From assembly GCF_000364445.2 (NCBI RefSeq), contig NZ_CP043538.1, positions 265,198-329,197 on the forward strand: 64,000 bases of DNA, read 5' to 3'. Under the pieces are notes generated by a model. It had not been told where the DNA came from and made no database searches. It saw nothing but the letters and a program-made list of their open reading frames with translations. The DNA comes from Methylobacterium mesophilicum SR1.6/6 (GTDB lineage: Bacteria; Pseudomonadota; Alphaproteobacteria; Rhizobiales; Beijerinckiaceae). Both the position numbers and the translations under genes were made by a program. This document shows, piece by piece, positions 32,730 to 51,750 of this stretch (its first letter is position 1; each line of letters starts with the position of its first letter).

Positions 32730-34160
32730 TCACGCTGGGCCGGCCTGCTCCACCATGGCTGCGGCGGCTGCCGTCAGCCCCCACCGGACGAGATCCTGAG
32801 CCTCCTGCGCCGACTTGGCTTCCGCGTAGCAGCGCAGCTCAGGCGCGTTGCCGGAGGCGCGGAAGTGGATGGTCCGCCCGCCGTCGAGTTCGATCCTGAT
32901 GCCGTCCTGCTGATCGACCGAACCCGGCGAACCCACCGGCCTCAGGAAGGCGATGCGAAACCCTTCGTCGCGGAGGCGATCCAGGAATGCGCCGCTGCGC
33001 TCCGACGGCGTGTTGGGGAGCCGGTCGCTCGCCATCTCCCCGGCATCGAGCGACAGGACCAGTTCGGCCAGGGAGCGGCCCGCGGCCCGCGCCGCGGCCA
33101 GCGTGGCCAGGATCGGCAGCAGGGCGTCCCGCGTCGGCAGGGCCGGAAGCACCCGGCCGCCGATCGTGACGTCCGATCCGAGCAGGAAGCCTCCATTCGC
33201 CTCGAAGCCGACGACAGGACCGGACCCGGCCCGCCGCGCCTGTTCCATGCCGGCGATGACGAAGGGGGAGCCGACCTTGGTGCGCACCACCTTCTTGAAG
33301 CCGCCGGACTGCTCGAGGGCCGAGCCGGCGGTGACCGGGACCACGACCGTGTCGGCGCCGAGGAACCGGGCGGTGATGAGGCCGAGCACGTCGCCGCGCA
33401 GGATCCGGCCGGCACCGTCCGCGATGAGGGGGCGGTCGGCGTCCCCGTCGGTGGTCACGAGCGCGTCGAACGCGCCGGAAGCCATGACGTCGCGGATGAA
33501 GGCGATGTCCTCTGGCCGATGCGCCTCGGTATCGATGGGGACGAAGGTCTGCGATCGGCCGATCGGCGTCACCGCCCCGCCGAACTGGCCGAGCAGGTCC
33601 GTCAGGAGATCGCGCGCGACCGAACTCTGCTGATAGACCGCGATCCGCAAACCCTTCAGGATCTCGGGTACGAAGGCCTCGCCGTAGCGTCGACGGTAGC
33701 GCGCGATGGCGTCGGGCTCCGGCGTGGCGGGGGCTGGCGTTGCCGTCGCCGCATCGGTGTCCGCGACCGCCTCCAGGGCGGCGAGGATGGCGGCCTCGTC
33801 GGTTTTGGTGATCTCGCCGTCAGGGCGGTAGAACTTCAGGCCGTTGCGGTCCTCGGGGATGTGGCTACCCGTGACCATCACCGCGTGGGCACCGCGCCGC
33901 ATCGCTTCGAGGGCGAGGGCCGGGGTCGGCAGGGCGCCGCAATCGACCGCCGCGAAACCGCACGCTGCGGCGGCGGTCGCCACCGTCGCGGCGATGCCCG
34001 GGGAGCTGTCGCGCAGGTCGCGCCCGATCACGACTGTGCGACCGCCCTCCCCCGCAGGGACCGACCGGAAGAACGCGCAGGCATAGCGGTAGCTCGGCCT
34101 ACCGACGAGATCGGTCACGAGACCCCGCAAGCCACTCGTGCCGAATTTCAGACTGCTCAC
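32730..34160 (-). CDS. phosphomannomutase/phosphoglucomutase family protein
   Basis: The enzyme interconverts hexose 6- and 1-phosphates and so supplies the precursor for nucleotide sugars. The 476-residue product shows the phosphoserine loop VMVTGSHIPEDRNGLKFY (Ser near residue 97), the metal loop TTDGDADRP (near 245), the sugar-binding GFEANGGFLLG (near 325) and the phosphate-binding FRASGNAPELRCY near the C terminus. The active-site loop has TGSHIP instead of the common TASHNP, as in a subgroup of these mutases. It may feed glucose-1-phosphate to RfbF or mannose-1-phosphate to GDP-mannose; which one is not deducible. Confidence 0.88.
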   Translation of the reverse strand: MSSLKFGTSGLRGLVTDLVGRPSYRYACAFFRSVPAGEGGRTVVIGRDLRDSSPGIAATVATAAAACGFAAVDCGALPTPALALEAMRRGAHAVMVTGSHIPEDRNGLKFYRPDGEITKTDEAAILAALEAVADTDAATATPAPATPEPDAIARYRRRYGEAFVPEILKGLRIAVYQQSSVARDLLTDLLGQFGGAVTPIGRSQTFVPIDTEAHRPEDIAFIRDVMASGAFDALVTTDGDADRPLIADGAGRILRGDVLGLITARFLGADTVVVPVTAGSALEQSGGFKKVVRTKVGSPFVIAGMEQARRAGSGPVVGFEANGGFLLGSDVTIGGRVLPALPTRDALLPILATLAAARAAGRSLAELVLSLDAGEMASDRLPNTPSERSGAFLDRLRDEGFRIAFLRPVGSPGSVDQQDGIRIELDGGRTIHFRASGNAPELRCYAEAKSAQEAQDLVRWGLTAAAAAMVEQAGPA

Positions 34161-34377
34161 GGCGTTCCCGCTGACCCCCGGCGCAGCGACGCGCCCCGCG
34201 GCGATTGATGCCGCGAATCGTGCGCCATCACAACGCCCGGACGATCACGGATGGCGGTGCGGGCGGTGGCTGCCCCTGTTCCGGCGGAGGCCTTTGCGCC
34301 GCGCAGGCGCGCGCCGCGGCTCCCGGCGTGTGACCCCGTGGCGGCCCACGAACGACCGGCCGCCCCGGACGGGGCCG

Positions 34378-35031
34378 TCAGGCGTTGAGCCGCTTGTACA
34401 CCTCGATCGCGTCGTCGACGTCCTCGTAGACGATTGCGCGCCCGTTGAGCAGGACGAGGCCGTGGGTGCACCACTGGCGGATCGTCTCCATCGAGTGCGA
34501 GATCATGATGATGTCGGCGTTCTTGCAGCGCTGGGCGAAGACCTCGTCGCAGCGCTTGGAGAAGCGGGCGTCGCCCACCGAGGTGATCTCGTCGATCAGG
34601 TAGCAGTCGAACGGGATCGCCATGCTCATGCCGAAGGCGAGGCGCGCGCCCATGCCCGACGAGTAGGTGTAGATCGGCGCCTCGAGGTAGCTGCCGAGTT
34701 CCGAGAAATCCTCGACGAAATCGAGCACCTTGCGGGGGTCCTCCCCGTAGATCCGGGCGACGAACATGACGTTGTCGCGCCCCGTCATCTTCGGATGGAA
34801 GCCGCCCGCGAAGCCGAGCGGCCAGGAAACGCGCCGGTCGCGGCGGATCTTCCCCCTCGAGGCGTCCTCGGTCCCGGCGATGAGGCGCATCGTGGTCGAC
34901 TTGCCGGCGCCGTTGATGCCGAGGATGCCGTAGGAGATGCCCGGCTTCAGGGTGAACGACGCCTGGTCGAGGATGATGCGCGGGTGACCGTTGGTCCGGT
35001 AGATCTTGGTGACTTTCTCGAAACGGATCAC
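34378..35031 (-). CDS. kpsT: capsular polysaccharide ABC exporter ATP-binding protein (KpsT type)
   Basis: The ATPase of an ABC-2 exporter that moves finished polysaccharide across the inner membrane has 217 residues. It shows Walker A GILGINGAGKSTTM (near residue 40), the signature-like YSSGMGARLAFGMSM, Walker B DCYLIDEITSVGD and the switch His in IMISHS, with no C-terminal extension. This is the short KpsT form. GTG 35031 (VIRFEKVTKIYRTNG) has GGGAG upstream. It is divergent from kpsE, and its permease partner kpsM lies 12 kb away. Confidence 0.9.
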   Translation of the reverse strand: MIRFEKVTKIYRTNGHPRIILDQASFTLKPGISYGILGINGAGKSTTMRLIAGTEDASRGKIRRDRRVSWPLGFAGGFHPKMTGRDNVMFVARIYGEDPRKVLDFVEDFSELGSYLEAPIYTYSSGMGARLAFGMSMAIPFDCYLIDEITSVGDARFSKRCDEVFAQRCKNADIIMISHSMETIRQWCTHGLVLLNGRAIVYEDVDDAIEVYKRLNA

Positions 35032-35097
35032 GGGGACCGCTCTCCCGACACACGGCAGGCCATCGACGGCCCTCGGCGCCGCGCTAGCGCGCGAAGG

Positions 35098-35130
35098 TGG
35101 CCAAACTTGGGGGCTTCCTCCTGTTGGCCA
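35098..35130. promoter_or_regulatory. inverted repeat in the kpsT-kpsE divergent spacer
   Basis: TGGCCAA (35098-35104) and TTGGCCA (35124-35130) form a perfect 7-bp dyad with a 19-nt spacer; CCAA-AC-TTGG is nested at the left. It lies 67-99 bases upstream of kpsT and 157-189 bases upstream of kpsE. Operator function is a guess from its position. Confidence 0.28.
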
Positions 35131-35286
35131 GTCCCGGGCCATCCCGGGCCGCGGCGCCGGGACCCCCACGGACATGCTTTTGCCGTCTGGCGGTGTGAGA
35201 GGCTTCGCAGGCCTCGGCGCCGCCATGATCGCGGGCCGAGCGGGTCCGCGACCCCGTCCGAAGCCGCTGAAGCCGGGAAGCAGACG

Positions 35287-36531
35287 ATGAACATGGAGAT
35301 CCGGCAAACCGGGGGTAAGCCGCTCAAGGTCTCGGACCGGCAGCGGGCGATCACCGACGCGCTGCAGCAGTTCACGCGCCTGACGAGCGTGATGGACCGG
35401 AAGAAAGGTGTCCGGTCCTATCAGAGCCACGTCAAGGACGACCCGTGGATGCCGATCCTGTTCGTGATCTGCTTCGTGCTGCCGGTCGCGCTCGGCGCCC
35501 TGTATTACGGCCTCATCGTCTCCGATCGATACGTCACCGAGACCCAGTTCGCGATCCGGCCGGCGGTCGGCTCGGCCGAGAAGGCCGCGCCGGACGAAGT
35601 GGGGACCAATGCCGGCACCGTGAGCTCGACGATCGCCCAGGACAGCCTGATCACGCTGGAATATGTCCACAGCCGGCCGTTGCTGGAGGCGATCGAGGCT
35701 GAGCTGCCCGTCCGTGACTGGTTCAGCCGCGACAGCATCGACTACTTCTCCCGCCTCAACCCCGATAAGCCCATCGAGAAGCGCCTGCGCTACTGGCGCC
35801 ACCGGGTGGCTGTCGATGTCGATTCGACCTCAGGAATCATGTGGCTCTCGGTCGAGGCGTTCGATCCGGGCGAGTCGCTGGCCATCACCCAGGCCATCCT
35901 GAAGGCCGCCGACGCGATGGTGAATGGCCTCAGTGCCCGGGCGCGTGAGGATGCCGTCGCCGAGAGCGCGCGCGAGCTGACGCGCGCCGAGGAGCGCGTT
36001 CGCACGATCAGCGCGGCCCTGACCGATCTGCGCAACCGGGCGGGCGTACTCGACGCCGTGAAATCCAATGAGGCCAATCTCGCCACGATCGCGCAGCTGC
36101 GCAACACGCGGGTGAACCTCGCGGTCCAGCTCGCGGTCGGGCAGCGCGATCTCGGCCCGGCCGCCCGCAATATCATCGACATCAAGCAGCAGATCGCCGA
36201 TCTCGATGCCAATATCGCGCGCCTCCAGCGGGAAAGCGCCGGCGCCGCGCCGGAGCAGAAGCGCCAGCTCTCGAGCGCGCTCACGCAGTTCGAGGCCCTC
36301 GAGACCGAGCGGAAGAGCGCGGAAAAATATTACGAGTCGGTGCGCAAGGCCAACGAGCACGCGCGCATCATCGCGGCGCGTCAGGTCGAGTATCTCAGCC
36401 CGGTCGTCGTGCCTGTGAAGGCGGAATCCTCCACCGAGCCGCGGAGAGCCCTGATGATCAGCCTGATCACCGCGGGCTCGGCCGTGCTGTTCGCGGCGGC
36501 GCTGTTCGCGCGCAAGCTCATGGTCAGCTAA
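35287..36531 (+). CDS. kpsE: capsule export inner-membrane/periplasmic adaptor (KpsE type)
   Basis: The 414-residue product belongs to the polysaccharide co-polymerase type that bridges the ABC exporter and the outer-membrane channel. It has a cytoplasmic N terminus (about 1-55), TM1 (about 56-78, PILFVICFVLPVALGALYY), a periplasmic domain with YVTETQFAIRP, a long coiled coil (about 215-375) and TM2 near the C terminus (about 385-408, LITAGSAVLFAAALF). ATG 35287 opens MNMEIRQTGG. It is divergent from kpsT. No kpsD-type outer-membrane partner is in the window. Confidence 0.85.
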   Translation: MNMEIRQTGGKPLKVSDRQRAITDALQQFTRLTSVMDRKKGVRSYQSHVKDDPWMPILFVICFVLPVALGALYYGLIVSDRYVTETQFAIRPAVGSAEKAAPDEVGTNAGTVSSTIAQDSLITLEYVHSRPLLEAIEAELPVRDWFSRDSIDYFSRLNPDKPIEKRLRYWRHRVAVDVDSTSGIMWLSVEAFDPGESLAITQAILKAADAMVNGLSARAREDAVAESARELTRAEERVRTISAALTDLRNRAGVLDAVKSNEANLATIAQLRNTRVNLAVQLAVGQRDLGPAARNIIDIKQQIADLDANIARLQRESAGAAPEQKRQLSSALTQFEALETERKSAEKYYESVRKANEHARIIAARQVEYLSPVVVPVKAESSTEPRRALMISLITAGSAVLFAAALFARKLMVS

Positions 36532-37879: not shown

Positions 37880-38448
37880 GCACACCCACTCCTAGCTGCG
37901 GTGGGAGGTACACAAACAGCCCGTGCAGGTCACGGGGCTTCGCGTATGGCTCGACTGCGCGTCGTGCAGCCGTGGCGCGACAGAACGGGGGACGGCACAG
38001 GCCGCGCCGTTCCCTGCTGCAGCGTACAGACGCACGCGACCCTCCGGAAACCGCAGACACCATCACGCAGGTTGAGGGATCTGCCTGGACCGCGTTCGAT
38101 CGTGGCATGACCTCGCGGACCGAATGCCCGTTCAAATCGTGAGGAAATGCTGGACGAGATTATCGGCCCGGCACCAACGGCGCGAACAGTCATCACGATT
38201 TTGTTAGCGCTGGGCGATCAACAATCGATGATTTACGAGCGAACAAAAGGCAAATTTACTTGTCATAGCTGCGGACGCGTTTAATGAATGTAATAATGGA
38301 AGCGCCATCGAGGTGATCCGGATGGTGGCGGCGGGCCGGCGCGGCCCGCTCCCGGTAAAACTTCCTTCAACGTGGCGTTGTGGTTACACCGTCGATCACG
38401 AAATCGTGTACGCTCTCCCTCAAGGTCAAAGGCATCGAGAGGCAAGCT
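37880..38448. other. 569-base intergenic stretch
   Basis: No convincing gene is seen. About 38170-38300 is A/T-rich and probably carries the promoter of the rightward cysC block. An in-frame GTG at 38380 could extend cysC upstream by 23 residues. Other frames look like chance. Confidence 0.4.
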
Positions 38449-39123
38449 TTGAAACAGCCGGGCGGCGCAAGCGATGATCGCAATCTGACTTGGCAGACCC
38501 TGCAGCCGCGCGAGTCTCGTTGGCGCGCGCTTGGTCAGCGGCCCGTCATCGCATGGCTTACCGGACTGTCCGGTGCAGGCAAGTCTTCGATCGCTATGGC
38601 TGTCGATCGTGCTTTGACCGGCGCGGGGCGCGCCACCATGGTGCTCGATGGAGATAATCTCCGACATGGCCTCAACAAAGATCTCAATTTTACTGAAGAC
38701 GATCGCATCGAGAATATTCGGCGGACCGCAGAGGTGGCGAGACTCATGGCAGAGGCTGGCCTCGTGACAATCGTCTCGCTGATCTCGCCATTCCGTGTGG
38801 AGCGAGACGCGGCACGGGCAACGGCAGGCGATATTCCCTTCCTCGAAATCTTCGTCGATACGCCCCTGAAGCTCTGCGAGGCGCGAGATCCGAAGGGCCT
38901 CTACGTTCGCGCGAGATCCGGCGAGATCCCCAATTTCACCGGTGTTTCCGCACCCTACGAAGCACCTCTGGGGCCGGATCTGGTCCTGGCCACGGCGGGC
39001 CGCCACGTCGCCGCCTCGGCACAACCCTTGATTGACGTCCTGCTGCGGTTAAGCGCCCAGCGCAACCCATCGGCCAAATCAGTCAATGCGCAAGTGAGTA
39101 GCCTATCCTCATCAGGAATATGA
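38449..39123 (+). CDS. cysC: adenylylsulfate (APS) kinase
   Basis: APS kinase phosphorylates APS to PAPS, the sulfate donor. The product has Walker A WLTGLSGAGKSSIAMAV, the substrate loop LDGDNLRHGLNKDLNF, ENIRRTAEVARLMAEAG and DPKGLYVRARSGEIPNFTGV, all CysC hallmarks. I chose TTG 38449, which has GAGAGG six bases upstream; GTG 38380 is the alternative. No cysD or cysN (ATP sulfurylase) is adjacent, so APS must come from elsewhere. The sulfotransferase gene starts 27 bases downstream, which points to PAPS supply for polysaccharide sulfation rather than cysteine synthesis. Confidence 0.93.
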   Translation: MKQPGGASDDRNLTWQTLQPRESRWRALGQRPVIAWLTGLSGAGKSSIAMAVDRALTGAGRATMVLDGDNLRHGLNKDLNFTEDDRIENIRRTAEVARLMAEAGLVTIVSLISPFRVERDAARATAGDIPFLEIFVDTPLKLCEARDPKGLYVRARSGEIPNFTGVSAPYEAPLGPDLVLATAGRHVAASAQPLIDVLLRLSAQRNPSAKSVNAQVSSLSSSGI

Positions 39124-39150: not shown

Positions 39151-40125
39151 ATGGCTTTCGGTGAAAGAGTTCATCTCGTAATCCACGTCGGTCCGCACAA
39201 GACCGGAACGACATCCATCCAGAAAATGTTGTTGTCTCAGTCCAGCAAAGAGGATTGCGGTTTTACATATCCCTTGCTCTGCGGCGACGAGATCGGGCAG
39301 CACACGTTCGCGCAATCGGCCTGCTCTCCTGAGCGGCCGGCCTGTCAGAGGATGCTGGCCGTTCTCAAGACCGTGGAAGGCTTGTGTGTCCTGTCCAGCG
39401 AGGAATTGTGCTATCTGCCGGCCTCGGGGATACGAAGCCTGCGAGACGCGCTTCCCGACGCGCGCGTCACGATCGCATATTATCAACGCGATATTCTTTC
39501 GCTCTTGCAATCCTGGTGGCAGGAAACGGTCAAGCATGGGAGTGTTCGCACCCTGCCGGATTTCGCATTCGGTTGCGTGCTCGCACCCTCTCAGCTGCAC
39601 CTGCTCGTCCCGGACACCTTGTTGAAGGGCTGGGCATCCTTCTTCGGCCGGGATGCCATCAGGATCGTCCGCTACGACCGCGTCTCCGACGTCGCCAAGC
39701 AATTCGCCTCCGATTTCCTCGCTCTCGATCTGCCAGCCGAAGCGCTGGCGTTCAGCAATCCATCTTACGATTATATCGATTGCGAAATGATGCGCTTCTG
39801 GAACAGGCAAGGGTTCTGGGGATCAGGCGTCGTTCAGGCGCCGGATTACTTGGACGTGCGGACCGAATTCGCTGAGCGATCGAGCGCCTTCACACGGAAT
39901 TTCAGCTTGAACTACAGCCGCAGCGCGTTCTCGACGATTGAGGAGATGCTGATTTCACGCTGGGGCGATCGGATTGAAGGCTTCGATGGCGGTCAGCTGT
40001 TCGAGGTGCGAGAACGATTGTATTCCTACATCGATCCGGATGTCTGGGCGGCCCATCCTGCCCTGATCGACAAAATGCGCGCGTTCGCACTCCAGAATGC
40101 GGCCTTCAGCTGTCCGAAACGCTGA
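39151..40125 (+). CDS. sulfotransferase family protein
   Basis: The 324-residue product opens with HLVIHVGPHKTGTTSIQKML (residues about 8-28), the 5'-phosphosulfate-binding loop of PAPS-dependent sulfotransferases. A second conserved region, ARVTIAYYQRDILSLLQSWW (near 107-127), fits the 3'-phosphate-binding strand and helix. There is no signal peptide or membrane segment, so it is cytoplasmic. It lies 27 bases after cysC in the same direction. It probably sulfates a sugar or lipid precursor of the exported polysaccharide. The acceptor is unknown. Confidence 0.85.
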   Translation: MAFGERVHLVIHVGPHKTGTTSIQKMLLSQSSKEDCGFTYPLLCGDEIGQHTFAQSACSPERPACQRMLAVLKTVEGLCVLSSEELCYLPASGIRSLRDALPDARVTIAYYQRDILSLLQSWWQETVKHGSVRTLPDFAFGCVLAPSQLHLLVPDTLLKGWASFFGRDAIRIVRYDRVSDVAKQFASDFLALDLPAEALAFSNPSYDYIDCEMMRFWNRQGFWGSGVVQAPDYLDVRTEFAERSSAFTRNFSLNYSRSAFSTIEEMLISRWGDRIEGFDGGQLFEVRERLYSYIDPDVWAAHPALIDKMRAFALQNAAFSCPKR

Positions 40126-40636: not shown

Positions 40637-41464
40637 ATGGCTCAGACAATCCGGAAGCAGGTTCTGTTCGTCGGAAATTGCAACGCGCATGATCTGTCTC
40701 TGGCATTCTCCGCCCTGGATGCTTTGCGCGGTGACTTCGAGTTCCATCATCTGGCCCTGCACGCGACGCCGATCCCCTCTCCGGAGATCAGGCAGATCGC
40801 GCAGGACGCGCATGCCGTCTTCATCCAGAACATCGCCGAGGCCGAGCGATTCAAGGAGGAGCACGTTCCCAGCGGCGTCCGGTGCTTCGGCTATCCCAAC
40901 CTCATGCGGCGGGCGCTGTGGCCGTTCGACGGGCTGGTGTACGGGCGTGACGCCCTCGCCGAGGCCGACGCGGCCAAAGCCGGCTTCATCCGGTTCCCCG
41001 ACGGGCTCCTCGGCAAGCTGAGAACCGACGTTCCGGATCCCGAGGAGCGCTTCATCGCCTATCGCGACTTGAAGGCGTCCGGCATCAACCGGAACTTCAC
41101 TCGTCTCCTCGAGATGGAAGACGAGATGCTGACCCACATCGACAGCATCTTCGAATGTCAGCTTGGCCGGTACGTGCGGGAACAGACCCGGACGGACCAG
41201 CTCTTCCACTGGCTGGGTCACCCGAGCGGCCTCCTGTACGCCGCCCTGATGGGGTATTGCTGCGCGAAGCTCGATCTTCCCGATGTCAGGCCGCAGCCCG
41301 GGGCCGTCGATGGCTGGTCGACCATGCAGGTCCCGGTCCATCCCCGCGTGGCGGAGCAACTCGGACTGGAATGGGCGACGCCTGAGCGGGTCTATACCTA
41401 CGCACCCCTCGGGCAGGTCACCTGGGAGCAGTACGTGAAGCACTACATCCAGATCCTCGGTTGA
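40637..41464 (+). CDS. WcbI-like polysaccharide biosynthesis protein (putative acyltransferase)
   Basis: The 275-residue product matches the WcbI family found in capsule loci. It has an N-terminal strand-loop KQVLFVGNCNAHDLSLAFSA (about 7-26) like the nucleophile loop of SGNH hydrolases. A conserved His appears in FHWLGHPSGLLYAALMGY (about 192-209), and the C-terminal VPVHPRVAEQLGLEW fits. ATG 40637 follows GTG 40631, which is also possible. WcbI binds coenzyme A and is a putative acetyltransferase (family knowledge). Here it precedes a carrier-protein acyl module, so it is a candidate for transferring the ACP-bound acyl group to a sugar. That is inference. Confidence 0.75.
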   Translation: MAQTIRKQVLFVGNCNAHDLSLAFSALDALRGDFEFHHLALHATPIPSPEIRQIAQDAHAVFIQNIAEAERFKEEHVPSGVRCFGYPNLMRRALWPFDGLVYGRDALAEADAAKAGFIRFPDGLLGKLRTDVPDPEERFIAYRDLKASGINRNFTRLLEMEDEMLTHIDSIFECQLGRYVREQTRTDQLFHWLGHPSGLLYAALMGYCCAKLDLPDVRPQPGAVDGWSTMQVPVHPRVAEQLGLEWATPERVYTYAPLGQVTWEQYVKHYIQILG

Positions 41465-41478
41465 GCGGCGGATCCGCC

Positions 41479-43383
41479 ATGAAGGCCGAGGACCTCACCT
41501 GGCTGCCGCCGCCGCCGGACGACTGGCGCGACCGCGTCGCGGCCGCCCTGGCGGACGGCGACCGCCAGCGCGCGTGGTCGAGCCTCGTCGCCCTGGCGCG
41601 GACGCGGCTCGACTTCGTCCAGACGGCTCGGGTGAACGCCGCGCTCCTGAAGCTGTTTCCGGAGGCACCCGCGCATCTGACCACGCGGCCGGTGCGGCTC
41701 GCGGTCCTCGGCTCGGCGACGCAGACGCATCTCTTCCCGGCCCTGCGGGTCGCCGCCCTGCGCCGCGGGATCTGGCTCGCGCTGTATGAGCCGGATTATG
41801 GCCAGTACAGGCAGGAACTCGAGGATCCGAGCCCGGAACTCCGGGCGTTCGGGGCCGACACTGTCCTGTTCGCCCTCGACGCGCACCATCTCACGCAGGG
41901 CGTGCGGGATCTCGCCGATCTCCAGGCCGCGGACGACGCGGTGGCCCGCTCGGTGGACGGACTCGCGCGCTGCTGGCGCGCCGCCCAGGACCGACTGGGC
42001 TGCCGGGTGCTGCAGCAGACCGTGCTGCCGGTCTTCCCGGCCCTGTTCGGCAGCAACGAGCATCGGATGCCCGGGTCACGCCACCGCGCCGTGACGCGCC
42101 TGAACGCCCTGATCCGCGACCGGGCAGACGCGGCCGGCGTCGACCTCGTCGCCGTCGACGACGGCGCCGCCCGGTACGGGATCGCGGCCTGGCACAATCC
42201 CGTGCTCTGGCACCGGGCCAAGCAGGAGGTCTCGCCGACAGTCTCGCCGCTCTACGGCGAATGGGTCGCCCGGATCCTGGCCGCGCGGCAGGGCCTGTCG
42301 GCCAAGTGCCTCGTGTTCGACCTCGACAACACCCTCTGGGGCGGGGTGGTCGGCGACGACGGGCTCGACGGCATCGTCATCGGCAACGGCGACGCTTTGG
42401 GCGAGGCCTTCCTGGCGCTCCAGCATTACGGCCTCGATCAGGCCCGGCGCGGCATCCTCCTGGCTGTCTGCTCGAAGAACGACGAGGCGAACGCGCTGGC
42501 CCCCTTCGACAGCCATCCGGAAATGGCGTTGCGCCGCAAGGACATTGCCTGCTTCGTCGCCAATTGGGACGACAAGGCCGCCAACATCCGCGCCATCGCC
42601 CGGCGGCTCAACATCGGGCTCGACAGCCTCGTCTTCGTCGACGACAACCCCTTCGAGCGCAACCTCGTCCGCACCGAACTCCCGATGGTGGCGGTCCCGG
42701 AGGTGCCGGACGATCCGGCCCTGGTCCCGCAATGCCTCGCCGATGCCGGCTATTTCGAGGGCGTGGTCCTGACCGAGGAGGATCGCGACCGCACCGCCCA
42801 GTACCGGCAGAACGCCGAACGGGAGGCGGCCCTCGACGGCGCGACCGACATCGCCGCCTACCTGCGCAGCCTCGACATGGTGCTGGCGTGGTCGCATTTC
42901 GACACCACGAACCTCGCCCGCATCGTGCAGCTGATCAACAAGACCAATCAGTTCAACCTGACGACGAAGCGCTACGGCGAGGACGAGATCCGCGCCCTCA
43001 TGGCCGACCCGGAGGCGGTCGGCCTCCACTTCCGCCTGACGGACCGCTTCGGCGACAACGGCCTCATCGCCGTCGTGATCGGCCTCAGGCGCGGCGCCGA
43101 GCTCGTCCTGGACACGTGGCTCATGAGCTGCCGGGTGCTCAAGCGGCGGGTCGAGGAGGCGACGCTGGAGGTCATCGCCGCCGAGGCCGAGCGGCTGGGC
43201 GCCACGGCGCTAGTCGGCGCGTACCGGCCGACCCCGAAGAACGGCATGGTGCGCGGCCACTACGAGCAACTCGGGTTCCGCCTCGCGGAGGAAGCCGAGG
43301 ACGGCACCACGCACTGGCGGCTCGACCTGGGCGGCCGTCAGCGCCCCGATCTCCCGATGCAACTGGTGAAGCTGGACCGATGA
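41479..43383 (+). CDS. FkbH-like HAD-IIIC family protein
   Basis: The 634-residue protein has three regions: an N-terminal SGNH/flavodoxin-like segment (about 60-255, RLAVLGSATQTHLFPAL), a HAD-IIIC domain (about 270-440) with FDLDNTLWGGVVGDDG, VCSKNDEAN and FVDDNPFERNLVR, and a C-terminal GNAT-like fold (about 480-620). FkbH proteins dephosphorylate 1,3-bisphosphoglycerate and load glyceryl onto an ACP. ATG 41479 is used; a TTG at 41461 overlaps the previous stop. Its stop overlaps the ACP start by ATGA, strongly tying the two. A glyceryl- or modified acyl-ACP for polysaccharide decoration is inferred. Confidence 0.88.
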   Translation: MKAEDLTWLPPPPDDWRDRVAAALADGDRQRAWSSLVALARTRLDFVQTARVNAALLKLFPEAPAHLTTRPVRLAVLGSATQTHLFPALRVAALRRGIWLALYEPDYGQYRQELEDPSPELRAFGADTVLFALDAHHLTQGVRDLADLQAADDAVARSVDGLARCWRAAQDRLGCRVLQQTVLPVFPALFGSNEHRMPGSRHRAVTRLNALIRDRADAAGVDLVAVDDGAARYGIAAWHNPVLWHRAKQEVSPTVSPLYGEWVARILAARQGLSAKCLVFDLDNTLWGGVVGDDGLDGIVIGNGDALGEAFLALQHYGLDQARRGILLAVCSKNDEANALAPFDSHPEMALRRKDIACFVANWDDKAANIRAIARRLNIGLDSLVFVDDNPFERNLVRTELPMVAVPEVPDDPALVPQCLADAGYFEGVVLTEEDRDRTAQYRQNAEREAALDGATDIAAYLRSLDMVLAWSHFDTTNLARIVQLINKTNQFNLTTKRYGEDEIRALMADPEAVGLHFRLTDRFGDNGLIAVVIGLRRGAELVLDTWLMSCRVLKRRVEEATLEVIAAEAERLGATALVGAYRPTPKNGMVRGHYEQLGFRLAEEAEDGTTHWRLDLGGRQRPDLPMQLVKLDR

Positions 43384-43628
43384 CCGACGACGCAATCTAC
43401 GCCGGCCTGACCGAGATCTTCCGCGACTTCCTCGCCGACGATACGATCGTGCTGACGCCGGAGACCACGGCCGACGACGTCGAGGGCTGGGATTCGTCGA
43501 GCCACATCAACATCCTGCTCGCGGCCGAGGAGCGGTTCGGCGTTCGCATGACCAGCGCCGAGATCGAGAAGCTGACGAGCATCGGCGCCCTGGTCGACCT
43601 GATCCGGTCCAAGAACCCGAAACTCTGA
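43380..43628 (+). CDS. acyl carrier protein
   Basis: The 82-residue acidic helical protein has the phosphopantetheine site in VEGWDSSSHINILLAAEERF (Ser directly after W-D, near residue 39). The standard D-S-L reads D-S-S here. The helix pattern and length fit stand-alone ACPs. ATG 43380 overlaps the FkbH-like stop (ATGA), so the two are translated as a pair. It is probably loaded by the FkbH-like protein and then processed by the MaoC-SDR fusion 23 bases downstream. Confidence 0.92.
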   Translation: MTDDAIYAGLTEIFRDFLADDTIVLTPETTADDVEGWDSSSHINILLAAEERFGVRMTSAEIEKLTSIGALVDLIRSKNPKL

Positions 43629-43651
43629 ACCCCCAGCTCCGAGGTTCGGCC

Positions 43652-44992
43652 TTGGCCGCCATCGCCGCGCGTACCTTCACCCTCGACGATCAGCACGCCT
43701 TCGCGGCGCTGTCGGGGGATTCCAACCCGATGCACCTCGACGCGAAGGCGGCCCGGCGGACGCAGGCGGGGCGCGTGGTGGTGCACGGGGTGCACGCCGT
43801 GCTGTGGGCGCTGGACGCCGGCGCCGGGGCGACGCTGGCCGGGCTGGAAACGCTGACGGTGCGCTTCGACCGCATGATCTACGTGGGTGACCGCTGCGAG
43901 GTTCACTCCGGCCGCCGCGGCGGCGCGGGCCCCGCGTTCGACATCGTCGTCGGCGACGCGGTCGTCACCCGCATCGACATCGGATCCGGAGGCGGGGCGC
44001 CGGTCGCCGCCGAGGCCATCGGGCATGTCTTCGACCGTGCGGCGCGGGCTTCCGCGCTTGAGGCCGCGTTCCCGCGGGCGGCCGCCGCGTTCGGGGCCGG
44101 GATGCTCGCCGATCTCGCGGGTCTTTCTCAGCTCGTGGGCATGGTGGAACCGGGCCTGCACTCCATCTTCCGCGGCTTCGCGGTGGCGCGTCAGGACAGC
44201 GAGCGCGGCGACACCATGCGGTTCGGCGTGGTTCGCGACGACGAGCGCTTCAACCTCGTCACCCTGGCGGTGCTCGGCCCGGCCTTGCGCGGGCAGGTCG
44301 AGGCCTTCCGGCGGGCGCCGCCGGTGGCGCAGCCGGGCGTCGCGGATCTGCGGGGACTGGTGGCGGCCGATGCGTTCGCCGGGCGGTCCGCCCTGGTGGT
44401 CGGCGGCTCGCGGGGGCTCGGCGAGTTGACCGCGAAGCTGCTCGCGTTGGGTGGCGCCGCGGTTACGATCACCTACGCCATGGGCGATTCCGAGGCCGCG
44501 GCGGTGGCCGAGGAGGTCCGCGCCGCGGGCGGCGCCTGCGACGTCATCCGCCTCGACGTGCGGCAGCCCATCGCCGGCCAGCTCCCCGCGGGCCGTGCCT
44601 TCGATCGGCTCTTCTACTTCGCGACGCCGTTCATCTTCGGGAAGCGCGGCAAGGCGCTGGACCTCGCCCTCCTCGACGAGATGATGGGTTTCTACGTGCG
44701 CAGCTTCTACGAGGTCTGCGAGGCCCTGCGCCGGACCGGGGATCACCCGATCGGCGTCTTCTACCCGTCGAGCGTCGCCGTCGAGAGCCGGCCGGCCAAC
44801 ATGACGGAGTACGCCATGGCCAAGGCGGCCGGCGAGGTGCTCTGCGCCGACCTGCCCCGGCTCCTCAAGGGCGTGCGCGCGCAGGTGCGCCGGCTGCCGC
44901 GCCTGCAGACCGATCAGACGTCGAGCGTCCAGCCGGTCGAGACGGGCTCGGCGGTCGACGAGATGCTGGCGGCCATCCAGAGCCTCGCCTGA
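43652..44992 (+). CDS. MaoC dehydratase - short-chain reductase fusion protein
   Basis: The 446-residue protein fuses two fatty-acid-type enzymes. The N-terminal part (about 1-140) has the R-specific hydratase motif ALSGDSNPMHLDAKAA with the Asp/His pair, then GRVVVHGVHAVLWAL. A middle segment (about 140-235) is not recognised. The C-terminal SDR (about 236-430) has ALVVGGSRGLGELTAKLL, FYPSSVAVES and the catalytic Y-A-M-A-K in TEYAMAKAAGE. The start is TTG 43652 with GAGG seven bases upstream. Together they could reduce and dehydrate (or hydrate) a beta-keto/hydroxy acyl chain on the adjacent ACP. The fusion is unusual; the product is unknown. Confidence 0.85.
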   Translation: MAAIAARTFTLDDQHAFAALSGDSNPMHLDAKAARRTQAGRVVVHGVHAVLWALDAGAGATLAGLETLTVRFDRMIYVGDRCEVHSGRRGGAGPAFDIVVGDAVVTRIDIGSGGGAPVAAEAIGHVFDRAARASALEAAFPRAAAAFGAGMLADLAGLSQLVGMVEPGLHSIFRGFAVARQDSERGDTMRFGVVRDDERFNLVTLAVLGPALRGQVEAFRRAPPVAQPGVADLRGLVAADAFAGRSALVVGGSRGLGELTAKLLALGGAAVTITYAMGDSEAAAVAEEVRAAGGACDVIRLDVRQPIAGQLPAGRAFDRLFYFATPFIFGKRGKALDLALLDEMMGFYVRSFYEVCEALRRTGDHPIGVFYPSSVAVESRPANMTEYAMAKAAGEVLCADLPRLLKGVRAQVRRLPRLQTDQTSSVQPVETGSAVDEMLAAIQSLA

Positions 44993-45594: not shown

Positions 45595-46347
45595 TCAGGA
45601 CTGCGCGACGATGAGGTCGGGCCGCACGTACCAATCGTCGAACAGGGAGAACTGGCGGAACCGCGGGCGATAGCCGTGGCCGGTGAGCAGATCGTAGATC
45701 TTCTCGCGGGTTCCCGAGAAATTATGCTCGACGCTGATCAAAGCGATGTCGTGGCGCGAGAAATCGAAGCTCTGCAGCACGTCGAACTCACCGCCCTCGA
45801 CGTCGATGCTCATGTAGTCGATCCGCTTCGGCGCCCGCGCCTCCGCGAGGAACCGCGCGAGGGAGATCGTCTCGACGCTGTACTGCCGTCCCTCCTGCCG
45901 GAAATGCGCGTGGAAGTCGCTCTCCACGAGGTCCTTCATGCCGGACAACTCGCCGATATCCACCTCGTTGAACTGAACCTCGGCGCCGTCGGTCCTGTAG
46001 ACGCATTTGTCGCTGATGTAGCAGTCGCGGTTCCTGTACAGCGCCTCGTGCCAAGCCCGAGAAGGCTCCGCGAGGGCACCCTGCCAGCCATACGTCTTCT
46101 CGAGGAGGAGCGTGTTGCTGAGGCTCATGCCATCGCAGGCGCCGAACTCCACGAAGTAGCCGTTCCGCTTCTCCTTCAGCTCGTACAGGACCCAGAGATC
46201 CTGCAGCAGCTGCGCGTTGGACAGCGGTGCCATCCGGGTGGCGAAGGACAGGAAGTCGAGCTCGGAGCTGAGGATGTGGGGTCCGGCGTCCAGGTTGTCC
46301 CTGAATGCGATGACGGCGTTGAACATCGTCAGGAGTTCGACGTCCAT
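45595..46347 (-). CDS. FkbM-family methyltransferase
   Basis: The 250-residue protein has FkbM motifs: GYFVEFGACDGMSLSNTLLL (SAM-binding, about 63-82), WQGALAEPSRAWHEAL (about 88-103) and the late motif RIDYMSIDVEGGEFDVLQSF (about 175-194). These enzymes O-methylate sugars or acyl groups in natural products and surface glycans. ATG 46347 opens MDVELLTMFNAV. It is followed by the small helical gene and preceded by the coiled-coil gene at 46405-46746, all leftward. The substrate is unknown. Confidence 0.88.
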   Translation of the reverse strand: MDVELLTMFNAVIAFRDNLDAGPHILSSELDFLSFATRMAPLSNAQLLQDLWVLYELKEKRNGYFVEFGACDGMSLSNTLLLEKTYGWQGALAEPSRAWHEALYRNRDCYISDKCVYRTDGAEVQFNEVDIGELSGMKDLVESDFHAHFRQEGRQYSVETISLARFLAEARAPKRIDYMSIDVEGGEFDVLQSFDFSRHDIALISVEHNFSGTREKIYDLLTGHGYRPRFRQFSLFDDWYVRPDLIVAQS

Positions 46348-46960: not shown

Positions 46961-47755
46961 TCACGCCTGTATCTTGGCCACGACGTGCTTCACCAGAAGC
47001 AGGCCGATGCTGGCGGTCGTCAGTGCGAACATGATCACGTAGAGGCAGTCGACCTGGATGCCGGCATAGGGATAGTAGGCGGAGCGCACCCATTCCGCCA
47101 GCTGCATGGCCGGGTTGTACTTCATCCAATAGTATATCTTCTCGGGCATGTAGCTCGGAAGGAACATGACGCCGCTGGACACGTACAGGATGATGCTGAA
47201 CAGCGCGTAGCCGATCAGCCAGCCGGGGAAGAACCCGATGATCGCGACGTTGATGGTGCCGATGCCGATCCCGAGGAGGATGGCGGCGAGATAGCCGCAC
47301 ATGGCGGTGATGGGTTCAGCGGGAATCGGATCGCTGCCGATGACGACGAGGACGGAGGCGACGACGACCAGTGCGAGGAAGCCGGTCACGATCTCCACGA
47401 GGATGCGGGCCAGGATGACGTCGAACAGCTTGACCTGCGGATAGTAGGTCAGCGGACGGTTGGCGATCACCGCCTTCATCACCTCGCGGGAGATGTACTG
47501 GAAGACGAGAACCGGGACGGCGCCCGAGGCGAAGAACAGGGCCCGGTTGTCCCCAAGCGGGGCCGCCATCTTCTGGAAGGTGTAGATCGCGATCAGCATG
47601 AAGACGTGCACACAGGGCCAGAGCACGACCACGCCGTAGCCCCAGATCGAGGCGCCGAACCGCGTTCGCATGTCCCGCAGCATCAGGGCGTGCAGCACGT
47701 GCAGATAGGACTCGACCGGAGTCTTCTCTGCCTGAGCCGACGGAAGGGCAGCCAT
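46961..47755 (-). CDS. kpsM: capsular polysaccharide ABC exporter permease (KpsM type)
   Basis: The 264-residue ABC-2 permease has about six membrane spans and the family features DMRTRFGASIWGYGVVVLWP (N-terminal amphipathic entry helix and first span), FFASGAVPVLVFQYISREVM, VIANRPLTYYPQVKLFDVIL and YNPAMQLAEWVRSAYYPY near the C terminus. ATG 47755 starts MAALPSAQAEKT. It would pair with the KpsT ATPase encoded at 34378-35031. It lies leftward, immediately downstream of the giant glycosyltransferase gene and 89 bases from it. Confidence 0.92.
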   Translation of the reverse strand: MAALPSAQAEKTPVESYLHVLHALMLRDMRTRFGASIWGYGVVVLWPCVHVFMLIAIYTFQKMAAPLGDNRALFFASGAVPVLVFQYISREVMKAVIANRPLTYYPQVKLFDVILARILVEIVTGFLALVVVASVLVVIGSDPIPAEPITAMCGYLAAILLGIGIGTINVAIIGFFPGWLIGYALFSIILYVSSGVMFLPSYMPEKIYYWMKYNPAMQLAEWVRSAYYPYAGIQVDCLYVIMFALTTASIGLLLVKHVVAKIQA

Positions 47756-47844
47756 GGATCGACCTCTGGAGTTTCCCCGCCTGCTTCGGCGAGAAAATGG
47801 GCCAAAGTGCGTTGACGGGGGAGCCGGTGCGCCGGGAGCGGCTG

Positions 47845-50800
47845 TCAGGCCCGGATTGCGTAATAGTCGCCCATCAGGCTGTCGTATGTGGCGGCCTGGA
47901 TCGGCTCGGAACGCCGGCCGGCAGGCGAGACGTCGACGGCGAGCAGCCGGTCGTTGACGGCCGACGGGTCGGCGGCGAGGGCGTGCGGCAGGCGATGACC
48001 GTTCGGATAAGCCTGTAGCCTCTCGCTTTGGGCGCCGAGGTCGAAGGCGACCACCGGCAGGCCGGTGCGCAGGGCGAGCGTCAGCGCGTACGCGTAGGTC
48101 TCCGGCCAGATCGCCGGCAGCAGTACCATGTCGGCCGAGACGTAGGGCACGCGATCCAGGATCTCCGCGTCCTCCCAATGCCGGCCGGTCTCTGCGATCT
48201 GAAGGGCTGCCCGCGCCACACGATCGAGGGTCGGATCGTCAGTCGAGAAGCGCCCGGTCTCGAAGACCCCTGCCCGCTCAAGGCCGCCCGTGAGCGTCGG
48301 GTCCGAGAAGCCCACGATCGCGAAGGTCAGGGGCAGGTCGCGCCGGCGCGCATCCGCTGCCAGCGCCTGCAGAAGCAGCCCGCCTTCGGGCATGCTGACC
48401 CCGCCCAGCACGGCGACGCGGCGGATCCGTCCGGGCCTCTGCAGGGTGGTGTCGCGCACCGACCGCTCCGGCTCGATATGCGGCCGCACCGTCACCGCCA
48501 GATCCGGGTACACCCCCCGGATCCGCCCGGCCGTGTCGCAGGACGGCGCGAACACCCGCGTGGCGCCCGCCAGGAACCGCCCGAACGCCGCCCGCCGCGC
48601 CCTCGGGTCCGGCTCCTCGAACCCCTCCGCGTCCGACGCCAGGCACGCCCGGCACTCCGCCACCGGCGCCAGCCCGCAGTAGCGCCCGTCCGGCTGCACC
48701 AGGTGGTTGCGGTGGCACACCGGCGAGTAGTCGTGCAGCGTCCAGGCATACGGTCGGCCGGAGCCCGCCACCAGGTCCATCAGCGCGCCCGCCGCCGCCC
48801 AGCGCAGGCCCGCCAGCGAGTGCACGTGGATCAGCACCGGCGCCAGCGCCGCGATGAAGCCGGCGAGCTCCGCGGCGTCGCGCGGCAGGTACAGGCTGTC
48901 GAGGTTGGGCAGGTACAGGAACTCGGGGCTGCGGTAGGAGACGTGGACCTCGAGGTTGCGGGTCCGGTCGATCTGCAGCAGCACCACGCTCAGGCCCTCG
49001 GCACGCGCCTGCGCGATCATGTCGTCGATGTGGCGCTGGATGCCCCCGCCCCAGGCGTGGGTGACGAACAGCAGCGCCCGGCCGGCGAAGTGGCGGGCGA
49101 GCCGCGCGCGGTCGAGGCGGGCGCGCCCGCGCCGTCCGGGATCGGCCTGGACGAACTGGCCGACGCGGGCCGGGTAGTCCGGGTGCTTGGCCAGCAGCGC
49201 GGCCTGGCCCTGGTCGTACTCGCCGCCCTCATCGAGCCCGAAGGAGATCTGGCCGGCGTGGTAGACGAACACGTCCTCGGCGAGCAGGTTGACGAAGCCG
49301 GCCTTGATGGCGCGCAGGCACCAGTCGTTCTCCTCGCCGTAGCCCTTGCCGAAGGCCTCGGCGTCGAGGGTGCCGACCGCGTCGAGGGCTTGCGCCGTCA
49401 TGAGCATGCAGAAGCCGACGCCGGTGGGCACGGGCACGGCCTGGCCGGGGTTGGTCTGCGCGGCCAGGCGGTCGAGCTCGGGCCGTTCGATCTCGAGCGG
49501 CATGGTGTTGTTGGCGTTGAAGCGCGGGTAGGAGCAGATCGTGGCGTTGTTGGACAAAGGCGTGACGCTGGCCACGGGCGGGCGGGCGTCCTCAGCTTCC
49601 GCGTGGGCGACGAGGCGGTCGAGCCAGTCGCCGTGGACCTGGGCGTCGGAGTTGAGCAGGACGACGGCGCGGCCCTGGCGCAGGCCGAGCGCGCGGTTGA
49701 CCGAGCGGACGAAGCCGAGGTTGTGTTCGTTCTCGACGAGGTGGAACAGGCCGCGGCGGGCCAGCTCTGCCAGCTCTGCGGTGAGCTGCGGGTCGGGGGA
49801 TCGGTCGTTGACGGCGAGCAGGGCGAAGGGTGTCGCCTGGGGGGCCGAGAGGCAGGCGTGGATGGCGCGCAGGGTCTCGCCGCGTCCCTTGTAGACGGGG
49901 ACGATGACCAGCACGCGGGCGTCGGCGATGGGGAGCGCCTGGGGCAGGCCGTCCCAGTCCTGCGGCGCGGGGGCCGTCATGGGCGGGTAGGCGCCGAGAT
50001 CCTCGGGGGCGGCCATCAGCCCGGCGTCCCGGCCGGTGCGCACGTAGTGCAGGAACGGCGACTCGCCCGGGGCGAACAGGTGGCCGTAGGCGCGACGATA
50101 GAACCGAGTCGAGAAGGCCTTGCTCGGGTCTCGATCCTCCTCCTGCCCGTGGGACAGGAAGTGGATGACGGGACCGTTCTCGAAGCCGCGGGTGTCGGGA
50201 TAGCGCTTCAGGTACCAGGGCGCGTCGAAGAGGGGTTCGATCTGCCGCGCCTGCTCGAACAACGCCGCATCCTCCGCGGAGGGCGGTGAACCGTAGCGTG
50301 GATCGAAGCCGGCATCCGCGACATCCGCGCCGCGCAGCAGGGCGGTGGCCAGGAAGTGGACGAAGGGCGCGATCCCCGTCGCCTCCACGTAGGGATGATG
50401 CGCGCGGTAGGCCCAGCCGTTGAAGTCCGGCCTGGGGTTGCGGCCCTTCCTCCAGCCGGTGTCACAGTAGTCGCGCACCGCGTCGGCCTCCTCGGAGAGC
50501 CCGTAGCGCGCCCGGTAGAAGCCGTGGTCGAACGCCCCCGCCACCAGCCGCGCCTGCAGGGCGAGCAGCGCCTCCCGGTCCACAGCCTCCCGGCCGATCG
50601 CCCCCAGCCAGCCCGTGTCTTCGACGGGCGCCCGCGCCGGCCGCAACCCGCACACGCGCAGCAGCGCCGCCAGCGTCGAGCGGCCCGGCCCCGGGTCGCG
50701 CAGCTCCCGCCAGCCCGCGCCGGCAAAGTGCAGGTACGGCGCCATCCCGCCGACATCCGGGTAGGTCGCCCGGTACCAGCCCTCGTCCACCGCCGGCAGG

Positions 50801-51750
50801 TTCAGACGCTGCGGCCCGGCAAACGGCTCCGCCCCGGTGAGCCGCGCCTCGGCGACGTGGCGGAAGAACGGGTCGTCCGCCACCGCCCGGCTGCCGGCCC
50901 GCGCCTGCACGAAGCCGGTCGGGTCGAAGTCCGGCCGCGGGCTGACCCGCGCCCGCCAGCCTTCGGTCACGTAGTGGCGCAGCAGCGCGTCGTCCGAGGC
51001 GCCCGCCAGCGCCTCGGCCTGGGGCTCGGCGAGGCCCCGCCGGTAGTGGGCGGCGTCGAAGTGGGGCGCGAGCGTCCCGAGCCGCAGCGCCAGCGCTTCG
51101 GCCGGGTCCGGCCGGGCGGGTCCGCCGTGGAGGACGTAGTGCACCAGCGGGTTCTGGGTGGCGAAGGTGAGGCCGCGGGTCAGGCAGTAGGCCAGGGTGT
51201 CGAACTGCGGTGCGGGCTCGCGGCCCTCGCGCCAGCCCGACGCCATGTAGTGGTCGGCCGGGTCGACGCCGGCTGCGGCGATGTCGGGGTTGCCGGCGAG
51301 GTAGAAGGCGCCGTCGACGAGGCGGCGGGCGAGGCGCGCGATCTGGCGCGTGTCGCGCGGGGCCAGGGGATAGGCGGCGCCCTCCCCGGTGGACGTCCCC
51401 TTGCGGCGGTGTCGCGCGAGCGCGTGGAGGAAGGGGTTGATGCCGGCCGGGGCCAGGTGGGGGTGCTCGGCGAGGTAGGCGGCGGACGAGAAGTCGGGGC
51501 GCGGGTCCCTGCCCTCGCGCCAGCCGTGGACGAGGTAGTCGCGCACCGGATCGGCCGTGATGCCGTACCAACTCGCGTAGAAGTCCGCGTCGAAGTACGG
51601 CGCCAGCGCGGCGATCTGGTCTGGCGCGGAGGCGATATCGTTCGCCGGCAGAAGGCCTTTGGGGCCCGCGAGGATGGCGACGGCGCTGCTGCCCGCGCGG
51701 ATCAAGCCAGCGCTCGCCCAGCTTCGATACAAGCCGTGGAGTTTGTTCAA
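47845..51750 (-). CDS. giant bifunctional glycosyltransferase with N-terminal repeats (1301 residues)
   Basis: The N-terminal 600 residues hold six degenerate units of 70-110 residues, each with FD..FY..Y.....P..HY...GWREGR.P.P.F-like spacing (for example VRDYLVHGWREGRDPRPDF and DHYMASGWREGREPAPQF). A GT2 domain follows (about 610-860: VLVIVPVYKGRGETLRAIHA, VLLNSDAQVHGDWLD, GEENDWCLRAIKAGF). A GT4-like GT-B domain comes last (about 890-1300: LLFVTHAWGGGIQRHIDDM, WTLHDYSPVCHRN, VPYVSADMVLLPAIWPETYA with the E-T-Y-A donor loop). Two transferase activities in one chain suggest it builds a repeating disaccharide or starts and extends the chain. It is soluble, probably cytoplasmic. Confidence 0.9.
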   Translation of the reverse strand: MNKLHGLYRSWASAGLIRAGSSAVAILAGPKGLLPANDIASAPDQIAALAPYFDADFYASWYGITADPVRDYLVHGWREGRDPRPDFSSAAYLAEHPHLAPAGINPFLHALARHRRKGTSTGEGAAYPLAPRDTRQIARLARRLVDGAFYLAGNPDIAAAGVDPADHYMASGWREGREPAPQFDTLAYCLTRGLTFATQNPLVHYVLHGGPARPDPAEALALRLGTLAPHFDAAHYRRGLAEPQAEALAGASDDALLRHYVTEGWRARVSPRPDFDPTGFVQARAGSRAVADDPFFRHVAEARLTGAEPFAGPQRLNLPAVDEGWYRATYPDVGGMAPYLHFAGAGWRELRDPGPGRSTLAALLRVCGLRPARAPVEDTGWLGAIGREAVDREALLALQARLVAGAFDHGFYRARYGLSEEADAVRDYCDTGWRKGRNPRPDFNGWAYRAHHPYVEATGIAPFVHFLATALLRGADVADAGFDPRYGSPPSAEDAALFEQARQIEPLFDAPWYLKRYPDTRGFENGPVIHFLSHGQEEDRDPSKAFSTRFYRRAYGHLFAPGESPFLHYVRTGRDAGLMAAPEDLGAYPPMTAPAPQDWDGLPQALPIADARVLVIVPVYKGRGETLRAIHACLSAPQATPFALLAVNDRSPDPQLTAELAELARRGLFHLVENEHNLGFVRSVNRALGLRQGRAVVLLNSDAQVHGDWLDRLVAHAEAEDARPPVASVTPLSNNATICSYPRFNANNTMPLEIERPELDRLAAQTNPGQAVPVPTGVGFCMLMTAQALDAVGTLDAEAFGKGYGEENDWCLRAIKAGFVNLLAEDVFVYHAGQISFGLDEGGEYDQGQAALLAKHPDYPARVGQFVQADPGRRGRARLDRARLARHFAGRALLFVTHAWGGGIQRHIDDMIAQARAEGLSVVLLQIDRTRNLEVHVSYRSPEFLYLPNLDSLYLPRDAAELAGFIAALAPVLIHVHSLAGLRWAAAGALMDLVAGSGRPYAWTLHDYSPVCHRNHLVQPDGRYCGLAPVAECRACLASDAEGFEEPDPRARRAAFGRFLAGATRVFAPSCDTAGRIRGVYPDLAVTVRPHIEPERSVRDTTLQRPGRIRRVAVLGGVSMPEGGLLLQALAADARRRDLPLTFAIVGFSDPTLTGGLERAGVFETGRFSTDDPTLDRVARAALQIAETGRHWEDAEILDRVPYVSADMVLLPAIWPETYAYALTLALRTGLPVVAFDLGAQSERLQAYPNGHRLPHALAADPSAVNDRLLAVDVSPAGRRSEPIQAATYDSLMGDYYAIRA

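Follow-up and report, generated by a model that had tools for sequence, protein, structure and literature searches.

The stretch of DNA analysed here (the window, 64,000 nucleotides) belongs to a genome of a single 6.56-Mb contig whose named close relatives are Methylobacterium, and it raises the question of what a set of acyl-loading genes does within a putative capsule locus. At 40637-44992 of the forward strand, four tightly spaced genes stand in tandem and encode a WcbI-like protein, an FkbH protein, a carrier protein (ACP) and a MaoC-SDR fusion (Table 1). The WcbI and FkbH genes are separated by 14 bp, the FkbH and ACP genes overlap by 4 bp (ATGA) and 23 bp lie between the ACP and fusion genes. 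All four proteins exceed a curated Pfam or NCBIfam cut-off, so that the tandem described in the original prediction is present, on one strand and with every member above its family cut-off.

Table 1. Positions, strands and family matches of the cassette genes and their neighbours in the window
Feature	Position	Strand	Start and family match
KpsE-like export protein	35200..36531, inside ORF 34138-36531	+	TIGR01010, 191.5 bits, below the cut-off of 437.5
Adenylylsulfate kinase	38380..39123	+	PF01583, 2.7e-62; TIGR00455 above cut-off
Putative sulfotransferase	39151..40125	+	No library match
WcbI-family protein, candidate acyltransferase	40637..41464	+	ATG start; PF18588, 47 bits (cut-off 29.2)
FkbH protein	41479..43383	+	ATG start; TIGR01686, 302.3 bits (cut-off 146.65); PF21211, 38.9 bits (cut-off 27)
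Stand-alone ACP, 82 aa	43380..43628	+	ATG in the ATGA overlap with the FkbH stop; PF00550, 29.6 bits (cut-off 20.8)
MaoC-SDR fusion	43652..44992	+	First start TTG at 43652; PF01575, 46.8 bits (cut-off 27); PF00106, 34 bits (cut-off 26.6)
FkbM-family methyltransferase, convergent neighbour within the capsule core	45595..46347	-	PF05050, 4.4e-19
KpsM-like capsule exporter permease	46961..47797	-	NF050053, 93.6 bits, below the cut-off of 300

The flanks of the cassette also encode nucleotide-sugar and glycosyltransferase proteins, and their homology, together with that of the KpsE and KpsM relatives, supports a predicted capsule setting. A protein of 1301 aa encoded at 47845-51750 has family 2 and family 4 glycosyltransferase matches, preceded by a long N-terminal part for which Pfam gave no match. 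Upstream of the cassette, the adenylylsulfate kinase may, by association, supply PAPS for sulfation, and the product of the next gene, which we take to be a sulfotransferase from its P-loop-like motif, had no match in Pfam, NCBIfam or the PDB. Annotated sulfotransferases are also found near FkbH on plasmids of Niveispirillum (L080) and Rhodobacteraceae SC52 (L082). Third-position GC is 0.66 in the kinase, 0.71 in the sulfotransferase and 0.83 in the WcbI gene, compared with 0.93 each in the FkbH and MaoC-SDR genes, hinting at separate origins.

The FkbH protein, for which a TTG at 41461 offers an alternative start, comprises an FkbH_N domain, a HAD domain (DLDNTLWGG at residue 281) and a C-terminal part with Cys551, and has a solved relative in 3slr. 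The C-terminal Cys of FkbH proteins has a catalytic role; D281, D283 and C551 are invariant in 25 of the 25 aligned sequences, four of which are from plasmids on which the MaoC-SDR fusion was not found. The ACP contains the carrier motif WDSSSHI. In polyketide pathways, FkbH-like enzymes are described as producing glyceryl-ACP (PMC7489565).

The MaoC-SDR fusion consists of a hotdog domain with the catalytic motif (residues ~1-110), a second hotdog (~124-220) and an SDR domain (~237-446). Among the matches listed, full-length fold searches gave SDR matches only, and the two hotdogs were therefore modelled separately. With its D-x-N-P-x-H motif and two hotdog domains, the MaoC part has the features of a double-hotdog dehydratase, while the SDR part is classical, with G251, G252, R254, G255, G257, S373, Y387 and K391 invariant in 28 of 28 sequences. 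The middle segment, which had been called unrecognised, is not a new domain but the second half of the double hotdog. The fusion had also been considered unusual; rarity in databases was ruled out, however, as 2180 of the 7999 scored candidates matched at E 0.001, and each of the 120 matches listed was nearly full length, covering at least 83% of the fusion. It belongs to a large family and thus is not itself unusual. In multifunctional enzyme type 2 (MFE-2), an SDR is followed by a double-hotdog hydratase; the window fusion differs in its reversed domain order and in having the catalytic motif in the first hotdog. Per genome the fusion is sparse, occurring in 3 of the 385 genomes of the class sample (4 copies) and in 16 of the 398 of the phylum sample (20 copies), which may be undercounts since four candidates per genome were scored, and in 1 of 72,556 plasmid records.

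Whether these genes belong together can be judged from their linkage. All four class-sample copies of the fusion are within 5 kb of an FkbH gene, FkbH being present in 35 of the 385 genomes (42 genes). Of the 20 phylum-sample copies, 19 were fetched (all but that in G522), and FkbH was near 14 of these and not found near five (L062, L064, L067, which is a 5.4-kb contig, L072 and L073). Across 33 loci, each picked for its fusion gene (the window, L012, L013, L024, L026-L034 and L060-L079; 11 from Methylobacterium and 22 others), FkbH was found near the fusion in 26 and at 300 bp or less in 19 of those 26; the seven without a nearby FkbH include three near contig ends (L013, L067 and L076). Nine of the 33 are Methylobacterium loci of one kind (type 2, below), and the loci are therefore not independent. 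An ACP profile matched in 25 of the 26 FkbH-fusion loci, nine of the matches being the profile's own seeds; some seeds were chosen by position and motif, the small proteins of L060 and L024 having no Pfam match, and those from L074 and L067 are without the DS motif. The FkbH-ACP-MaoC-SDR core is real and beyond chance, and the mini acyl pathway originally put forward is borne out as a conserved core.

Based on this core, we propose that the four window genes on balance probably constitute a carrier-protein acyl-decoration cassette, in which FkbH would load the ACP, MaoC-SDR would alter the loaded group and WcbI would transfer it to a glycan. FkbH would load an activated three-carbon acid, which family precedent suggests to be the glyceryl group of 1,3-bisphosphoglycerate; MaoC-SDR, a double-hotdog dehydratase fused to a ketoreductase, both with their active sites conserved, would modify the ACP-bound acyl group; and WcbI, judging from gene order and its conserved Cys and His, would take this group off the ACP arm and attach it to a hydroxyl on a surface glycan. 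From the gene order, the most likely acceptor here is the capsule, with its export genes on either side of the cassette. On chemical grounds, dehydration of glyceryl-ACP would yield enol-pyruvyl-ACP and reduction would yield lactyl-ACP. A donor unit of this specific kind, in which MaoC would convert glyceryl-ACP to pyruvyl-ACP and the SDR would convert pyruvyl-ACP to lactyl-ACP for delivery to glycans by WcbI, MBOAT or hexapeptide transferases, is a tentative suggestion that we hold with low confidence.

The fusion is not found in every FkbH-ACP set. Three plasmids, from Sinorhizobium meliloti, Tistrella and a Rhodobacteraceae strain, have FkbH, ACP and MBOAT together without it, and a Paroceanicella plasmid has FkbH and ACP with no annotated MBOAT within 8 kb; FkbH was matched in 61 plasmid records, of which five were inspected, these four among them. 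The fusion therefore looks like an optional tailoring step. The three plasmids with MBOAT, along with glyceryl-ACP as the described FkbH product, could also be explained if WcbI passed glycerate on unchanged and MaoC-SDR served another pool, such as 3-hydroxybutyryl, but the distances given above (19/26 at 300 bp or less; 4/4 class copies within 5 kb) show close physical linkage of the fusion to FkbH, and we consider such direct transfer unlikely. On the S. meliloti plasmid (L083), genes for MBOAT, an unnamed partner, ACP and FkbH are consecutive; the partner is annotated as a TonB receptor and is without a Pfam match. Sinorhizobium accounts for 40 of the 61 FkbH-matching plasmid records, and one of these 40 was inspected.

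The absence of a ketosynthase, another element of the original prediction, is upheld for the window: a scan of window proteins from 24.8 to 51.8 kb, covering a subset of the ORFs, gave no match to a ketosynthase family. A ketosynthase from elsewhere in the genome, for example a housekeeping one or the KASIII at 985 kb, could in principle extend glyceryl-ACP to a short polyketide-like chain to be reduced and dehydrated by MaoC-SDR; in favour of this is the paralogous type-2 locus to which this KASIII belongs and which also encodes FkbH, a pair of carrier-like proteins, an SDR, MaoC-SDR and a hexapeptide transferase. This is improbable in our judgement, because KASIII was found only in the nine type-2 loci and in none of the 17 other FkbH-fusion loci in a one-sequence search of the fetched stretches, and because G041 carries the four-gene set with a single fusion copy, although a housekeeping ketosynthase may still take part. 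Extension is thus not evident in the 17 loci, and the fusion would most simply act on the C3 acid. In the paralogous cassette of the source genome (L024, G000:C1:976501-996000), the genes are in the order FkbH, carrier, KASIII, carrier, SDR, hexapeptide transferase and DegT, with a divergent MaoC-SDR; in other Methylobacterium genomes, relatives of this cassette adjoin the KpsM core.

The last proposed step depends on WcbI. Cys15 (codon 40679-40681) and His195 of the window protein align with two residues of the solved WcbI (4bqn), Cys14 and His201, which sit at the acyl-CoA thioester with CoA bound between them (PMC4104973). The profile match to 4bqn is weak (E 0.009), the Cys-bearing stretch scores 2.1 bits, and a single-sequence search of the PDB with the window protein returned no match, 4bqn included. 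The solved WcbI is reported to have shown no activity on its own, and the same report postulates a missing partner (PMC4104973); WcbI has been proposed as an acetyl-CoA enzyme. The window protein resembles this WcbI of a Burkholderia capsule in its PF18588 match, the aligned Cys and His and its location in a capsule gene cluster, but it is too distant for a single-sequence match and is tied to an ACP, so that its donor may be an acyl-ACP rather than acetyl-CoA. As phosphopantetheine is common to the tail of CoA and the arm of the ACP, an acyl-ACP donor would be a natural proposal. As for WcbI being the transferase, as originally predicted, the retained Cys and His and the co-occurrence of the core with acyltransferase-type proteins are in its favour, with the caveat that the profile match to 4bqn is weak.

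In the class sample, at thresholds of E 1e-8 and 1e-30, WcbI and FkbH were both present in only two genomes, and WcbI was within ~1 kb of FkbH in both. Six of the eight WcbI genes, including the other two of the source genome, had no FkbH nearby, which indicates that the WcbI family is independent of the FkbH-ACP-MaoC-SDR core. These two additional WcbI-family genes (G000:C1:1140541-1141167 and 3079-3699) both outscore that of the window.

The acyltransferase candidate beside the core varies among WcbI, MBOAT and a hexapeptide transferase with ketosynthase. WcbI is beside the core in five loci (the window, L026, L079, L095 and L096), and the order WcbI-FkbH-ACP-fusion is identical in four Methylobacterium genomes (the window, L026, L095 and L096). 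On the Niveispirillum plasmid NZ_CP025615.1 (L080), FkbH, ACP, WcbI and the fusion are encoded consecutively. An annotated sulfotransferase lies ~2 kb upstream, and at a greater distance, among transposons, are glycosyltransferase and FkbM genes; the WcbI of this plasmid is only 20% identical to that of the window. MBOAT and an unnamed partner protein are found in five FkbH loci (L066, L068, L070, L071 and L075), three of the partners having been scanned without a Pfam match. The hexapeptide transferase and KASIII characterize the nine Methylobacterium type-2 loci of the 33 and also L098. Besides KASIII and the hexapeptide transferase, which is PglD-like, type-2 loci encode an SDR and a pair of small carrier-like proteins, and some also a DegT aminotransferase, a gene content that would be expected for N-acylation of an amino sugar. 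L060 and L061 have a protein in common, the L060 copy of which gives a sub-threshold GNAT match. Because the core is paired with differing transferases, it has the appearance of a module that makes the donor and can serve one glycan acyltransferase or another.

The glycan context can be read both ways. Among 111 Methylobacterium genomes searched, 18 bear the fusion; in seven of these it has a KpsM relative no more than 10 kb away, as a type-1 fusion in the source genome and as type-2 fusions in six others. KpsM of at least 72% identity is present in all 18, although this identity cut was set after viewing the list; the resulting association (fusion in 18/28 genomes with a close KpsM vs 0/83; Fisher p 5.5e-14) was counted by eye, depends on the post hoc cut and ignores kinship, and is given no weight. 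In L026, L095 and L096, the four-gene set is at a housekeeping-type and not a glycan site, next to a MaoC-like gene and YchF (identified by scanning in L026 and L095, and assigned from size and order in L096). The other side is occupied by IF-2B-type and FtsK genes in L095 and L096 and by the contig end in L026. The MaoC-like protein at the YchF site is 329 aa long, with two MaoC stretches in L026 and L095, and has the same size and place in L096. The glycan setting of the original prediction thus stands for the window but is weakened by three of the four Methylobacterium sets being at a housekeeping site, and the observation named in advance as counting against the prediction, occurrence of the set mainly outside glycan loci, nearly holds for these sets. 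As a portable cassette, the four-gene set at the YchF site may have its target in glycans made elsewhere, or a target of another kind.

Elsewhere, the surroundings of L063 include glycosyltransferase, RmlD, deacetylase and FemAB genes. In a tally of 135 neighbours from 15 non-Methylobacterium loci with FkbH, for which 25 of 178 families were listed as raw counts with no random-region control, MBOAT, polysaccharide deacetylase and response regulators were the most frequent of the families listed (five each), NeuB was counted twice and flagellar rod or hook families three times. The tally covers proteins of 140-1200 aa within 8 kb of the fusion, minus the core genes and five of the 140 chosen, which were dropped for a length limit. 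As a point against the decoration reading, regulatory, flagellar and transposon genes are found beside the non-Methylobacterium loci as well as glycan genes. Alternatively, the cassette might make a secreted or cytosolic small molecule, with its position in a capsule locus being accidental. The housekeeping site in three Methylobacterium genomes would suit this, as would FkbH being known mostly from polyketide and peptide pathways, but the fusion is close to KpsM in 7 of the 18 genomes, glycan-type transferases recur beside the core and KpsM at the post hoc cut accompanies every fusion-bearing genome, which makes a small-molecule product quite improbable.

Among known systems, the FkbH-ACP glycerate units of methoxymalonyl-ACP, tetronates and suomilide likewise combine an FkbH-family protein with an adjacent stand-alone ACP; unlike them, the window has MaoC-SDR and WcbI and no match to a polyketide or peptide synthase. 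None of the window proteins that were scanned near the cassette corresponds to the two dehydrogenases of the FK520-type methoxymalonyl-ACP operon, and the FabH-like enzyme of the tetronate glycerate operon is absent from the window set, with a KASIII in the paralogous type-2 locus. For suomilide, carrier-bound glycerate is the proposed substrate of a sulfotransferase, which would sulfate it, and of a methyltransferase.

D-alanylation by the Dlt system employs an adenylating loader, a carrier protein and an MBOAT acyltransferase, and the cassette follows the same loader, carrier and acyltransferase logic, its MBOAT version being the nearest parallel. The loader of the cassette, however, is FkbH and not an adenylating enzyme, and the window has WcbI and no MBOAT; Pfam identified neither an adenylating loader nor MBOAT among the four window genes, and the parallel is functional only. 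Carrier-protein acyl genes or an FkbH gene are also known within glycan loci: in Aeromonas and Enterobacteriaceae, ACP and fatty-acid-type genes are described within islands for flagellin glycosylation, and cj1302 of Campylobacter is an fkbH-domain gene inside a glycan locus (PMC7874193, PMC4875605, PMC7099621). As described there, the Aeromonas and enterobacterial islands have an AMP-dependent synthetase or ligase with LuxE/LuxC, in contrast to FkbH with MaoC-SDR here. No description of the four-gene set, or of a donor unit of the proposed kind, was found in the open-access literature searched, which lacks most subscription journals. The overall reading of the original prediction is favoured.

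If glyceryl-ACP is indeed converted to lactyl-ACP for transfer to glycans, the missing partner of WcbI would be an acylated carrier protein, and this orphan capsule protein would gain a testable donor. Central carbon metabolism would then be linked, through a carrier protein, to the acyl decoration of surface sugars, and the large unnamed MaoC-SDR family would be explained as a tailoring enzyme for FkbH-loaded acids.
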